Assembly (NCBI RefSeq): GCF_025263685.1
Contig: NZ_CP092109.1
Coordinates: 2,853,001-2,917,000, forward strand
Direction: 5' to 3'
Origin: Geoalkalibacter halelectricus
GTDB taxonomy: Bacteria; Desulfobacterota; Desulfuromonadia; Desulfuromonadales; Geoalkalibacteraceae
Length of the DNA: 64,000 nucleotides
The position numbers and the translations under genes were made by a program. This document shows, in pieces, positions 1-36,105 of this stretch (within the stretch, counting starts at the first letter, position 1; the number at the start of each line of letters is the position of its first letter). The notes under the pieces were generated by a model. It worked only from the letters and a program-made list of their open reading frames with translations, was not told the origin of the DNA and did not search any database.

Positions 1-2
1 AT

Positions 3-1682
3 AGCAACGACATCGAGAAGGAGCGCGGCATCACGATTCTGGCCAAAAACCTCTCCATCCGCCACGGCGACCTCAAAATCAACATCGTCGACACGCCCGG
101 CCATGCCGACTTCGGCGGGGAAGTCGAGCGGGTCCTCAAAATGGTCGATTCGGTGCTGCTGCTCGTCGATGCCTGCGATGGCCCCATGCCCCAGACGCGC
201 TTCGTTCTGAAAAAATCCCTCGACCTGGGCCTCAAGCCCATCGTCGTCATCAACAAGATCGATCGGCCCGGCGCGCGACCGGAAAAGGTCGTCGACATGG
301 TCTTCGATCTGTTTTGCGAACTCAACGCAAACGAGGAGCAACTCGATTTCCCCATCGTGTTCGCCAGCGCCAAGCAGGGCATCGCCAAGCGCGAGATGGC
401 CGACGACTCCAACAACCTCGAACCGCTGTTCGCCATGATCCGCGAGCGGGTCGCGCCTCCGGAGGTCGATCCCGGGCGCCCCTTCCAGATGCTCGTCACT
501 CATATAGATTATAACGAGTACATCGGCCGTATCGCCACCGGCAAAATCTTCAACGGCCGCGTCAAGGCCGGTGAAACCATCGTCCTGGTCAAGCGCGGTG
601 GCGAGATCGTTCGCGGGCGGGTCTCCAAACTGCTCGGCTACGAGGGTCTCAAGCAGGTCGAGATCGGCGAGGCGACCGCGGGTGACATCGTGACTCTGGC
701 GGGCTTTGAGGAAATCGGCATCGGCGAGACCTTCGCCAGCGTCGACGACCCCCACGCCCTGCCCTACGTCTCCATTGACGAACCCACCATCTCCATGAAT
801 TTCATGGTCAACTCCTCACCCTTTGCCGGCCGTGAAGGAAAGTTTCTCACCTCGCGCCAGATTCGCGACCGCTTGACTCGCGAACTACGCACCAATGTTT
901 CGCTGCGGGTGCAGGATACGGACAACACCGACACCTTCAAAATCTCCGGGCGCGGCGAGTTGCACCTGTCCATCCTCATCGAAAACATGCGCCGCGAGGG
1001 GTTCGAACTGGCCGTCTCCAAGCCCGAGGTCATTCTGCGCGAAATCAACGGCCAGGTGTGCGAACCCACCGAGTACCTGGTTATCGACGTGCCCGAGGAG
1101 TATCAAGGCACGGTCATCGAAAAACTCGGCACCCGCAAGGCCGAGATGGTCTCCATGCAGCCCCTCGACGGGATAAACCGCCTGGAGTTCATCATCCCCG
1201 CTCGCGGCCTCATCGGATTTCGCACCGAGTTTCTCACCGACACCCGCGGCACCGGCGTCATGACCCACACCTTTCATGAGTACGCCCCCTTCAAGGGCCA
1301 CATCCAAGGGCGCAAGAACGGTGTGCTGATCGCCATCGAGCATGGCGAGAGCGCCGCCTATGCCCTGTTCAATCTGCAAGAGCGCGGCATTCTGTTCATC
1401 GGCCCCGGCGTCGAGGTCTACGAAGGCATGGTCATCGGGCAAAACGCCAAGGAAAACGACCTGGTGGTCAATCCCTGCAAAGGCAAGAAACTCACCAACG
1501 TGCGCGCCTCCGGCAGCGATGACGCCATTCGCCTGACCCCGCCACGCATTTTTAGCCTGGAGCAGGCCCTGGAATTCATCGACGAGGACGAGTTGGTCGA
1601 AATCACACCCAAGTCCATTCGCTTGCGCAAAAAGCATCTCGATGCCAACGAGCGCAAAAGGCACGAAAAGAAAATGGGATGA
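3..1682 (+). CDS. typA: Ribosome-associated GTPase TypA/BipA (5' end outside window)
   Basis: Translational GTPase that binds the ribosome and supports growth under stress and 50S subunit maturation. The frame is open from base 3, giving 559 residues; the family is usually about 605-615, so roughly 50 N-terminal residues including the P-loop lie upstream of the window. Visible are the G2 region (RGIT near base 30), G3 DTPGHAD at base 90 and G4 NKID at base 252, followed by EF-G-like domains II, III and V and a TypA-type C-terminal domain ending in a basic [15 protein letters not shown] tail. EF-G and LepA are excluded by length and domain order. No neighbour shares its strand closely downstream, so it probably ends its own transcript. 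Confidence 0.97.
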
Positions 1683-33048: not shown

Positions 33049-33073
33049 AAGGCAAAAGACTCAGGCTGTTTTT

Positions 33074-33149
33074 ACAGGGATGTACAGGATATTCAGGATG
33101 AAAACCGACGTCCCCCGCGCCTTATCCTGCATATCCTGTGTATCCCTGT
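33074..33149. repeat. 26-base imperfect inverted repeat
   Basis: Arms at 33074-33099 and 33124-33149 match at 23 of 26 positions; each is made of CAGGGAT/ACAGGAT-like short units. Located after the mutase gene; no T-run follows on the plus strand. On the minus strand the arm is preceded by an A/T-rich patch. Confidence 0.85.
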
Positions 33150-33171
33150 TAAAAAATTAGGGAATTTATTC

Positions 33172-33310: not shown

Positions 33311-35233
33311 ATGACGGTTTATCGACACTTTGTCACGATTCTGCCTGCCCTGATCGCGACCTTCCTGCTTTCTCTTCCCGCCTCGCCCTCCACGGCAGCA
33401 GAAATCTCCCCCGGCCTTCATGCCGCTTTGCAGCACGCTTCGCCAGAGCAGCCGCTGCCCATCATCCTCATTCTGGAGGCGCCCGAGGAGGTGCCCGATT
33501 TTGTCCGTCAGCGCGGCGGAAAGGCGCGTGCCTCCCTGGCGCGTGACCTGCGTGCGCGGGCCCGGGCCCGGGAGGCGCCGGTGGAGGCGTTTCTGCACCG
33601 GCGCGGCATCACCCAGGTCCAATCCCTGTGGCTGATCGACGGCCTGGCCTTGCGCGCGACGCCGACGCAGATCGCCGAACTGCAAACCCTGATCGAGGTG
33701 CGGGCCCTGCACCTCGACGAGCCTGCCGAGCCGCCGCCCGTGGAGGCGAGCTTCGCGCATTTTTCGCCGCGCTGGAACATCACGCGGGTGGGCGCTCCGC
33801 AGCTCTGGGAGCAGGGTTACGCCGGTGCCGGACAGGTGGTGGCGGTCATTGATACGGGTGTCGATCTCGCTCATCCCCTGCTGGGTCCGCGCTGGCGCGG
33901 CGGGAGCAACAGTTGGTTCGATCCCTTCGACGGCACCAGCGAGCCCGATGATTTTGCCGAAGGGCAGGGCGTGGCGCACGGCACGGCGGTCACCGGTGTG
34001 GTGGTGGCGGGCGAGGGGGTAGGTGTGGCGCCCGCAGCGCAATGGATCGCGGCACGCATCTTTCATCCCGAGCGCGCGACGCGCAGCTCGCACATCATTT
34101 CCGCCCTGCAGTGGACTCTGGATCCCGACGGCGACCCGGTCACCGACGATGCGCCCGCCGTGGTCAACGGCTCCTGGGGAATCAACGCGCAGAATTCCTG
34201 CAACACCGTTTATCGCCCTGCCATACAGGCGCTTAAGGCCGCCGGCATTGCCGTGGTGTTCGCCGCCGGCAACGCCGGTCCGCAAGCCGCTACCAGCGAA
34301 AGCCCCGCCAACTATGCCGAAAGCTATGCCGTGGGTGCCACCGACAGTCTCAACCGCATCGCCGGCTTTAGTTCGCGCGGCCCCTCGGCGTGCGGCGGCG
34401 GCATCTATCCGGATGTAACGGCGCCCGGGGTGAGCATCGTCAGTACCGACCTGGAAGGCGGTTTTGCCTCGGTTTCCGGAACCTCCTTCGCCGCGCCCCA
34501 CGTGGCCGGGGTGATGCTGTTGCTGCGCCAGGCATTCCCCACGGCCCCGGTGGCCGAAATCGAACAGGCTCTGCGCGCCGCGGCCGTGGATTTGGGACTC
34601 AGTGGTCCGGACAACAGCTTCGGCCACGGGCTGATCGATGCCCCGGCGGCTTACGATTATCTGGACTTCACGCCGGTGCCCGAGCTTTTGGCGCCCGAAA
34701 CGGATGCCCTGGTCGACGCCGGGGAAGTGACTCTTGCCTGGCGCCAAAAGCCCGACAGCTTCGGCGCTCCGGTGGAAAACCGGGTGCTGGTGGCGCTCGA
34801 TGCGGACTTCGCCCAGCCCCTGGAATGGGTAGCGGCGACCTCCGCGCCGGGTCCGGAGCGCCCAACCGCCGCAGCCGGCGCAGCCGGCGCCGTGCTGCTG
34901 GCGGCCGGTCTGGCCGCGGCGGGCGGCCGGCGGCGCCTGGCAATGCGCGTTGTGCCCGCGATTTTGGTGGCGGCCCTGCTGTTTGCCTGCGGTGGGGGCG
35001 GCGGCGGGAGCGACCAGGATGGAAATCTGGGGCTGGTGGTGGTGATTGAGGATGGGGAGGCGGAGCAAGGCGGCGATGAAAACGCAGAATTCTTCCCGAC
35101 GGATGATCCGCAGGTGCGGACCCTGACTCTCACGGGACTGACCAGCGGCGCCACCTATTACTGGAAGGTGGTGGCGGAGAACGCGCGCGGCAGTCAGCGC
35201 GAAAGCGAGGTGCGCTCCTTTACCCTGGACTAG
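33311..35233 (+). CDS. Secreted S8 subtilisin-like protease with split fibronectin-type domain
   Basis: A 640-residue exported serine protease. Signal peptide about 1-30, an I9-like propeptide region (about 30-140), then the S8 domain with catalytic D181 (VAVIDTGVD), H223 (VAHGTAV) and S392 (SGTSFAAPH), plus the oxyanion NGSWG/AAGNAG region. From about residue 454 a fibronectin-III-like domain begins (PELLAPETDALVDAGEVTLAW) and is finished only at 593-640 (LTGLTSGATYYWKVVAEN). Between the halves lie two hydrophobic segments (about 521-538 and 547-559) around RRR at 540-542, and a lipobox-like LLFAC with Cys560 followed by six glycines. Its stop TAG is part of the target duplication of the downstream element. 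Confidence 0.93.
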   Translation: MTVYRHFVTILPALIATFLLSLPASPSTAAEISPGLHAALQHASPEQPLPIILILEAPEEVPDFVRQRGGKARASLARDLRARARAREAPVEAFLHRRGITQVQSLWLIDGLALRATPTQIAELQTLIEVRALHLDEPAEPPPVEASFAHFSPRWNITRVGAPQLWEQGYAGAGQVVAVIDTGVDLAHPLLGPRWRGGSNSWFDPFDGTSEPDDFAEGQGVAHGTAVTGVVVAGEGVGVAPAAQWIAARIFHPERATRSSHIISALQWTLDPDGDPVTDDAPAVVNGSWGINAQNSCNTVYRPAIQALKAAGIAVVFAAGNAGPQAATSESPANYAESYAVGATDSLNRIAGFSSRGPSACGGGIYPDVTAPGVSIVSTDLEGGFASVSGTSFAAPHVAGVMLLLRQAFPTAPVAEIEQALRAAAVDLGLSGPDNSFGHGLIDAPAAYDYLDFTPVPELLAPETDALVDAGEVTLAWRQKPDSFGAPVENRVLVALDADFAQPLEWVAATSAPGPERPTAAAGAAGAVLLAAGLAAAGGRRRLAMRVVPAILVAALLFACGGGGGGSDQDGNLGLVVVIEDGEAEQGGDENAEFFPTDDPQVRTLTLTGLTSGATYYWKVVAENARGSQRESEVRSFTLD

Positions 35234-35394
35234 GAGGCTGTCGGACTATCCGGGCCGAAGCGAAAATTTGGATGTTTGAGTCCGGATTTTGGCTCCTTTG
35301 AGAGTGCATAGCCGTAGCTACGTGCCGAAAAGGAGCCGGAATCCGGACCAAACAGCCGGATTTGTAGCCGGCTCATGGATAGTCCGACAGCCTC
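35234..35394. mobile_element. 161-bp hairpin element (MITE-like) with CTAG target duplication
   Basis: Ends are the perfect 18-base inverted repeats GAGGCTGTCGGACTATCC and GGATAGTCCGACAGCCTC. Interior arms GTTTGAGTCCGGATTTTGGC and their near-complement around 35330-35352 extend the fold, so the whole element can form one long hairpin. Both flanks are CTAG. It encodes nothing. A YTAR-like target and ends of this type fit the IS5 superfamily; the parent IS is not in the window. A deleted relative is at 17.57 kb. Confidence 0.85.
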
Positions 35395-36105
35395 CTAGAA
35401 CTTGCCCGCCGGGGGATTTCGCGTGGGATCGACGCGCTGTTGCACGACGGTGCCGAGGTTGTCGGCCAGGCCGGCTTCGGCCAGCAGCTGGCCCCAGGGC
35501 CGATTTCCTTCCCGGGCCTGGAAGTACACGGCCGTGGCCGGTCGGCCGCCGGCCTGGGCGATGAACACGGCGAGAATGGTCTGCTGGGGATCGCAGCCGG
35601 CTTCGTGCAGGGCGCGCAGGGTGGCGGCGTCGGCCAGACCCTGTTCGAGCAGCACCTGATCGATGACGGCGCGCGCCAGTACCTCGTCCCAACCGTCGCC
35701 TGCCTCCACGGGGGGAATGGCCAGATCGATGGCGTGTTTCTCCAGAACCTGGCTCCAGTGCGCGGCGCGCCGTCTTTCCTGCAATAGCGCGCGCGGCTCC
35801 AGGGACGAGAGGGCGGCGGCGCGATAGGCGATCCACAGATCCTCGTTGCTGGTGCCGGTCTGCTTGGCCATCACCACCTCGCGCTTGGAGCGCTCGAAAA
35901 CAGCGGCCAGCAGGGTGTTCTGGGCGCTGGCGAGGAAATAGGCGTCGGCGGCGGCCGGGCTGTCGGGGTCGTAGGAGCGATCCTGAAAGCAATGACAGGT
36001 GATGGTGGAGGTCATCGCCTGGGCACTTGTGACGGCCGCCGGCATCAGGAAAAGAAAAAACGGTAAAAAGCGCAAGGCCTTCGGCAGGGAGAGTGGATTC
36101 GGCAT
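35395..36105 (-). CDS. Exported protein of unknown function, 236 aa
   Basis: Begins MPNPLSLPKALRFLPFFLFLMP with a signal peptide ending near AQA (about residue 30), so periplasmic or outer surface. The mature part starts with TCHCFQDRSYDPDSP, two close cysteines, and is then largely helical (AAADAYFLASAQNTLL ...). A later CDPQQTILAVFIAQ segment has one more cysteine. No CXXCH haem motif. ATG at 36105 follows GGAG by eight bases; an upstream ATG at 36165 lacks a signal-like start. I do not recognise the family. It converges on the subtilase, with the hairpin element between them. Confidence 0.75.
   Translation of the reverse strand: MPNPLSLPKALRFLPFFLFLMPAAVTSAQAMTSTITCHCFQDRSYDPDSPAAADAYFLASAQNTLLAAVFERSKREVVMAKQTGTSNEDLWIAYRAAALSSLEPRALLQERRRAAHWSQVLEKHAIDLAIPPVEAGDGWDEVLARAVIDQVLLEQGLADAATLRALHEAGCDPQQTILAVFIAQAGGRPATAVYFQAREGNRPWGQLLAEAGLADNLGTVVQQRVDPTRNPPAGKF

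Follow-up and report, generated by a model that had tools for sequence, protein, structure and literature searches.

Bacterial lipoprotein signals are generally assumed to lie at the N-terminus of a protein and are sought there. Lgt, LspA and Lol have their roles in the lipoprotein pathway, the strict form of the lipobox is [LVI][ASTVI][GAS]C, and an Asp directly after the lipoprotein Cys is the rule for retention at the inner membrane. To our knowledge, the known Lgt/LspA signals are N-terminal. In MYXO-CTERM proteins, the Cys comes first, followed by the helix and then the Arg residues; there is no defined lipobox, and the topology is inverted (PMC11980579). The second fibronectin type III domain of the insulin receptor (FnIII-2) is described as an FN3 domain whose insert holds the site at which two chains are cleaved apart (PMC2577065, PMC7039211). 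Among database models, the nearest entry to the protein described here is NCBIfam NF058595, “lipo-invert putative C-terminal anchoring domain” (invert_tail), by its name a putative C-terminal anchor, and NF033207, midcut-by-XrtH, denotes by its name an internally cut protein. The name “lipo-invert” was absent from the open-licence full-text literature searched, and a search of the open-licence literature by title and abstract found nothing relevant for midcut/XrtH, or for an internal lipobox, an internal LspA cut or a split FN3 domain.

We analyzed a subtilase gene in a stretch of 64,000 nucleotides of the Geoalkalibacter halelectricus genome (hereafter, the window). The C-terminal tail of this protein is an FN3-like domain interrupted by two hydrophobic helices, with RRR between them and a Cys and six glycines after the second. 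With bacterial lipoproteins (Lgt/LspA/Lnt), the tail shares a basic n-region, an h-region of about 16 residues, a lipobox with A, S or G at position -1, the Cys, and a Gly/Ser linker, and two N-terminal lipoprotein-type proteins (L009 and L013) from the same genome have the same Cys-Gly runs as the tail; it differs from lipoproteins in that its signal is internal, after an N-terminal signal peptide. An invariant Cys, a membrane helix and an Arg cluster also occur together in the C-terminal surface-sorting tag of the MYXO-CTERM/myxosortase system (PMC11980579), but the split tail runs helix, Arg, helix, lipobox Cys, half-domain; the arrangement of Cys, helix and Arg run at the C-terminal end given in that paper is reversed in the window protein, which therefore falls outside the class. 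In the GlyGly-CTERM/rhombosortase system, helix and Arg run resemble helix 1 and RRR, and the substrate VesB is reported to be a serine protease as well. The window protein is not a GlyGly-CTERM protein: helix 1 and RRR lie away from the C-terminus, with about 100 residues beyond helix 1, and the host genome holds no rhombosortase above the cut-off (best listed rhomboid-like match 42.7 bits versus 84). Insulin receptor FnIII-2 works alike and is unrelated; its furin cut lies in a disordered loop, without a membrane hairpin or a lipid, and its chains are disulphide-joined. Chains of the insulin receptor family did occur among the structural matches (7v3p_B 579..796 for the window tail, and 6hn4_F 596..787 for the model of a relative, L140), with the insert region spanned by residue numbers only. 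MYXO-CTERM with its internal example (see below) and FnIII-2 with its insert are the best analogues.

The likeness to NF058595 covers the helix-basic-helix-Cys-Gly part of the window protein (residues 510-568 to profile 17-80 of 113), and 27 of the 30 members of our alignment A2 (see below) match the model at E <= 0.001. The cut-off of 37 bits is missed by the window protein (21.6 bits for the whole protein and 25.4 for the tail alone) and by each of ten tail-bearing proteins compared with the model (best 35.0 bits). Matches above the cut-off were present in 2/118, 0/395 (best 11 candidates or fewer per genome) and 0/34 genomes, and the two are a split tail (L064) and an ordinary N-terminal lipoprotein (L063). 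We therefore rejected filing the window tail under NF058595: it lies below the cut-off, and true members, sought in the 118, 395 and 34 genomes, were not found. L063 and L067, two ordinary N-terminal lipoprotein-type proteins with Cys-Gly runs, both match the model, L063 above the cut-off, so that NF058595 can be satisfied by composition. For NF033207, the window protein gave no match at E <= 10 and is not a member; among ten relatives, weak matches of 20.3 (L064) and 19.8 bits (L095) lie far under the cut-off of 45.

A subtilase with a split FN3 domain

The frame at 33311-35233 on the plus strand is open, with 640 codons for 640 amino acids, and its parts are listed in Table 1. The window protein is a subtilase by the Pfam criterion (PF00082). 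In alignment A3, of 17 sequences, Asp181 and Ser392 are invariant and His223 is nearly so, and we take these three residues to be the catalytic triad. On reading the sequence, Cys560 stands in the context LLFAC, and a linker lies between the Gly run and the last FN3 strands.

Table 1. Parts of the subtilase frame, in window coordinates
Feature	Position	Strand	Residues	Basis
Signal peptide, N-terminal	33311..33400	+	1-30, end approximate	Sequence read
Peptidase_S8 catalytic domain	33824..34630	+	172-440	Pfam PF00082, 3.6e-49
FN3 domain, first half	34664..34843	+	452-511	Model strands E7-10, E15-17, E22-27, E38-44; profile positions 1-56 match intact FN3
Hydrophobic helix 1, proposed stop-transfer	34868..34918	+	520-536	Model helix 69-85, low confidence; hydrophobicity across 89 tails
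RRR, proposed cytoplasmic turn	34928..34936	+	540-542	Sequence read
Hydrophobic helix 2, proposed internal lipoprotein-type h-region	34937..34987	+	543-559	Model helix 92-109, low confidence
Lipobox Cys560, proposed Lgt/LspA site	34988..34990	+	560	Invariant in alignments A1, A2 and A3 and in 89/89 tails
Six glycines	34991..35008	+	561-566	Sequence read
FN3 domain, second half	35114..35227	+	602-639	Model strands E151-156, E164-172, E178-180, E184-188

The Pfam fn3 model matches residues 602-636 under its cut-off (E 0.0019; 18.8 bits against 25). Alignment A2 has 30 rows, 26 subtilase tails and four tails from other protein families, and a joined profile of 99 positions was made from it by removing the insert columns. 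This joined profile matches uninterrupted FN3 domains across the junction, with a best value of 3.5e-21 over positions 1-98. AlphaFold2, run on the window tail with a two-sequence alignment, placed FN3 strands on either side of the two helices (pTM 0.54), with pLDDT values of 72-86 in the FN3 blocks and 35-56 in the helix blocks. A plain Foldseek search with this model listed FN3 domains at the top, none of them at E <= 0.001. When the Foldseek candidates were aligned structurally, the first was the B1 domain of CelAly (9kvu; Z 10.7, 1.9 Å over 91 of 94 residues), which has no FN3 label, followed by the fibronectin(III)-like modules of CbhA (Z 9.9, 1.9 Å over 85, and Z 9.7) and, close behind, by numerous domains annotated as FN3 and some with a different fold (sulfite oxidase, PD-1). 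The alignments of the window tail span both halves (model 1..189). For the tail of L140, also modeled from a two-sequence alignment (pTM 0.40), L1CAM fibronectin domains were matched across both halves (Z 9.3, 2.6 Å over 89).

The joined profile and the predicted structures show that the two halves of the tail belong to one FN3 domain, and the insert sits in the loop after strand C-prime. The initial annotation, made from the sequence of the window alone, had described an FN3-like fold split by an insert, and this description holds on all three lines of comparison: the joined profile, the two-sequence models and the structural matches across both halves. The interrupted tail of the window subtilase is a real feature, and the observation is confirmed.

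Conservation and spread of the tail

Counting the host genome, subtilase matches were found in 33 of the 58 genomes sampled. Alignment A1 was built from 30 loci and holds 26 subtilase tails, in all of which Cys560 is kept. The four loci that it omits are one whose frame stops after the Gly run (L037), one at a contig end (L046), a different subtilase with no tail (L062), and one in which the tail and the Cys are present on reading (L039). In A2, the columns without any variation are those of a first-half Trp, the Cys and one Gly; variation is slight at the Tyr and Trp of the TYYWKV strand in the second half. Other subtilases, from further genomes, were read at their ends in 22 of 80 related loci: one has the tail (L140), 20 are without it, and one (L104) runs off its contig.

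With the A2 profile at E <= 1e-9, the split tail was found in 61 of 118 genomes of the host's order. Outside the order, among the matches listed, whole-module matches occurred in three genomes of a single genus, from a different order in the same phylum, which makes 3 of 24 genomes there; the phylum sample comprised 297 genomes, 25 of them with any match at E <= 1e-6, and the best 12 candidates or fewer were scored in each genome. A wider set, to which 50 further loci were added, gave 116 distinct profile matches. After 19 incomplete matches had been dropped, the remaining 97 consisted of 89 split tails, among them most members of A2, and 8 intact FN3 domains without the insert. The internal Cys, chosen in each tail by a script (hydrophobicity and a following G, S or N) and then checked by eye, is present in all 89 complete split tails, two of whose frames (L064 and L243) run past the sequence end at the C-terminal side. 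Homologs with the insert and no conserved Cys, which the initial annotation had taken as counting against its reading, were looked for, and none was found among these 89. Because the A2 profile includes the Cys column, tails without the Cys would score slightly lower; the loss of one column of 163 would hardly conceal them. Two matches at contig edges (G109:C98 and G107:C268) fall outside the set of tails read, and a different tail was read in each of the two genomes.

The tails end 46 to 111 residues past the Cys, with a median of 61 residues from the Cys to the C-terminus over the 89. In five pairs, with one sequence used twice, the part after the Gly run (the last 40 residues) is under purifying selection, with a dN/dS of 0.08-0.19, and the hairpin is looser than the halves in most pairs (0.19-0.83).

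The proteins that carry the tail were sorted by a simple motif into 40 subtilases, 33 frames under 400 amino acids and 16 others. Several of the 33 short frames consist of an FN3 domain followed by a split FN3, and some are cut by contig or locus ends; two of the 16 others (L203 and L216) may be subtilases that the motif overlooked. A Pfam search with ten tail-bearing proteins identified, among others, a glucose/sorbosone dehydrogenase (L075), a YncE-like propeller (L068), LVIVD (L259), GLUG (L257), an ASPM-Hydin Ig domain (L218), ubiquitin (L225) and, in L239 and L250, FN3-type or Ig-type domains only; it gave nothing above the cut-off for L234 and no match for L222. A hydrophobic N-terminal segment is present in 63 of the 64 tail-bearing frames that have an upstream stop, and in the same 64 no extra strongly hydrophobic 19-mer occurs from residue 100 to 80 residues before the Cys, a stretch that is short in the short proteins. 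At the level of sequence, these comparisons show the tail to be a transferable module, conserved on several unrelated secreted proteins. The expectation that the same insert would be found in other secreted families was borne out in other genomes and not in the host genome, where a genome search found no second copy of the split tail.

The insert as a possible internal lipoprotein signal

Over the 89 tails, the turn between the two helices contains 343 K/R versus 11 D/E, and the 25-residue outer flanks contain 93 and 36 K/R versus 222 and 240 D/E. From this distribution, both FN3 halves are expected to be outside and the RRR turn inside, an orientation that would give helix 2 the direction of a lipoprotein signal. 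An out-in-out topology thus fits the charges under the positive-inside rule, in agreement with the earlier placement of both halves of the domain outside the inner membrane. The distance from the last charge to the Cys has a median of 16 residues (range 3-27). At position -1 stands A in 38 tails, S in 37 and G in 14, that is, one of the three in 89/89, versus 28% A/G/S in the same helices, and at position +1 stands G in 84, S in 4 and N in 1. The strict lipobox occurs in 46 of the 89 tails, versus 7% of the triplets within the same helices; residue -3 is other than L, V or I in 22, and LFAC in the window protein departs from the strict pattern by its F at -2. Basic residues, a hydrophobic stretch and a Cys with A, G or S at -1, as in lipoproteins, are found in the window protein and in 89/89 relatives, and the N-terminal signal of a lipoprotein is lacking, with the Cys at residue 560 of 640. 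Asp at +1 occurs in 0/89 tails, so that the usual signal for retention at the inner membrane is missing. The insert thus resembles a stop-transfer helix with a lipoprotein signal behind it, and the conservation of the lipobox Cys and the Gly run noted earlier extends across the relatives.

On these grounds, we propose that ordinary Lgt and LspA lipidate and cut the protein at its internal Cys, and that the lipidated half-domain then holds the enzyme by completing the FN3 fold; we put the probability of this reading at roughly 0.6. Sec would export the N-terminal part of the enzyme, helix 1 would halt the transfer, the basic turn would remain in the cytoplasm, and helix 2, oriented like an ordinary lipoprotein signal peptide, would lead the polypeptide back to the outside. 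Lgt would add diacylglycerol to Cys560, and LspA would cleave just before it, leaving a short C-terminal chain, a half-domain with a lipidated N-terminus. By completing the FN3 fold, this chain would remain attached to the N-terminal chain, and a lipid in trans would thereby keep the protease at the membrane. A further step may be the later removal of helix 1, which would let the complex reach the outer membrane. The fate of helix 1 is the step most in doubt: a cut by LspA alone would leave two membrane helices on the N-terminal chain, which makes the lipid anchor seem superfluous if there is no second cut at helix 1. LspA was found in 59 of the 61 genomes with the tail, so that no special enzyme would be required; the two genomes without a match (G004 and G014) are draft assemblies with 200 and 310 contigs, respectively. 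An extra copy of LspA was considered as a partner and rejected, as the host genome has one match, and more than one row, in some cases gene pieces, was seen in 7 of the 61 tail genomes.

The chief alternative is a hairpin that is never cut, in which the two helices fix an FN3 cap to the outer side of the inner membrane, the chain stays intact, and the Cys is perhaps lipidated or makes another contact. The out-in-out topology and the single FN3 fold require no cut, and the two halves are conserved together, as such a cap would have it, but a plain hairpin has no need of an invariant Cys, of A, S or G before it in every one of the 89 tails, or of Gly after it in 84. We regard this alternative as unlikely, at about one chance in four.

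A dedicated sorting signal is more improbable still. The initial annotation had offered, beside signal peptidase II, a sorting protease that reads helix 1 and RRR; an enzyme of the rhombosortase, exosortase or CAAX type would free the N-terminal part, with the rest a remnant or a second product. A hydrophobic helix with an Arg run does resemble GlyGly-CTERM and similar tags, three rhomboid-like matches in the host genome score under the cut-off for rhombosortase, and the myxosortase paper reports that C-terminal tags can work in the middle of a protein and describes an internal MYXO-CTERM in MXAN_5598 (PMC11980579). Against this stand the lack of a rhombosortase above the cut-off in the host genome and the lack of association over 118 genomes, and the segment after the Cys is constrained and so not a remnant. 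Rhombosortase, the one dedicated sorting protease tested, was rejected as a partner: the tail is present in 10 of 20 genomes with rhombosortase versus 61 of 118 overall (Fisher p = 1), and the suggestion of a dedicated protease found no support in this comparison.

Translation from a start codon where helix 2 begins, which would yield the C-terminal half as an additional small lipoprotein of its own, is very improbable, since the Met that the window protein has three residues past RRR has a counterpart near that place in as few as 20 of the 89 tails (Met alone counted). That the tail is an artefact of a frameshift, a chimeric gene or an assembly error, as a broken frame in the G tract of the Gly run in one relative (G005) and an in-frame TAG in another (G072) might hint, can be dismissed almost with certainty, because nothing interrupts the window frame, 89 tails share its continuous architecture, and purifying selection acts on what follows the insert; the initial annotation had named a frameshift or assembly error as a ground for refutation.

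Taken as a whole, the interpretation in the initial annotation is partly supported. Its phrase “a new kind of surface anchoring” is tempered by the existence of the “lipo-invert” entry NF058595, though the window protein lies below the cut-off of that model. The recurrence of the interrupted tail on different secreted proteins suggests a little-known membrane tethering by a lipid added in mid-protein. Lipidation and cleavage at the internal Cys could then define a group of lipoproteins made of two chains: the ordinary machinery would act inside a folding domain, the lipid anchor would hold an enzyme in trans via the completed FN3, and unrelated secreted proteins would have acquired the module as it spread; we advance this broader view tentatively, at slightly less than even odds. 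Should internal signals be in use, then a number of cell-envelope enzymes of this order are being misread as secreted or integral membrane proteins, and Lgt and LspA have substrates that have not been sought. A natural, lipid-coupled split FN3, if true, would be of possible use in protein display.

Neighboring DNA and individual relatives

Upstream of the subtilase gene, at 33070-33160 of the window, an imperfect inverted repeat (acagggatgtacaggatattcaggat ... atcctgcatatcctgtgtatccctgt) was seen by eye. At the other end of the gene, a 169-bp element (35230-35398) has perfect terminal inverted repeats of 22 nt that start with CTAG, and its left end overlaps the TAG stop codon of the subtilase. 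At least 40 full copies are present in the host genome (best 40 of 91 candidates), the others being 96-99% identical to the copy in the window, and the element looks like a MITE.

Two relatives deserve separate mention. In L233 (G005:C1:3104134-3107098), the frame breaks in a G tract within the Gly run, just past the lipobox Cys, and the second half continues in another frame; the break may be a sequencing slip, decay or phase variation. The ubiquitin-bearing L225 (1372-2886) is a protein with a signal peptide, a ubiquitin domain (PF00240, 2.1e-28), two Hydin-type Ig domains and a split FN3 tail, and its ubiquitin domain strongly resembles eukaryotic ubiquitin.
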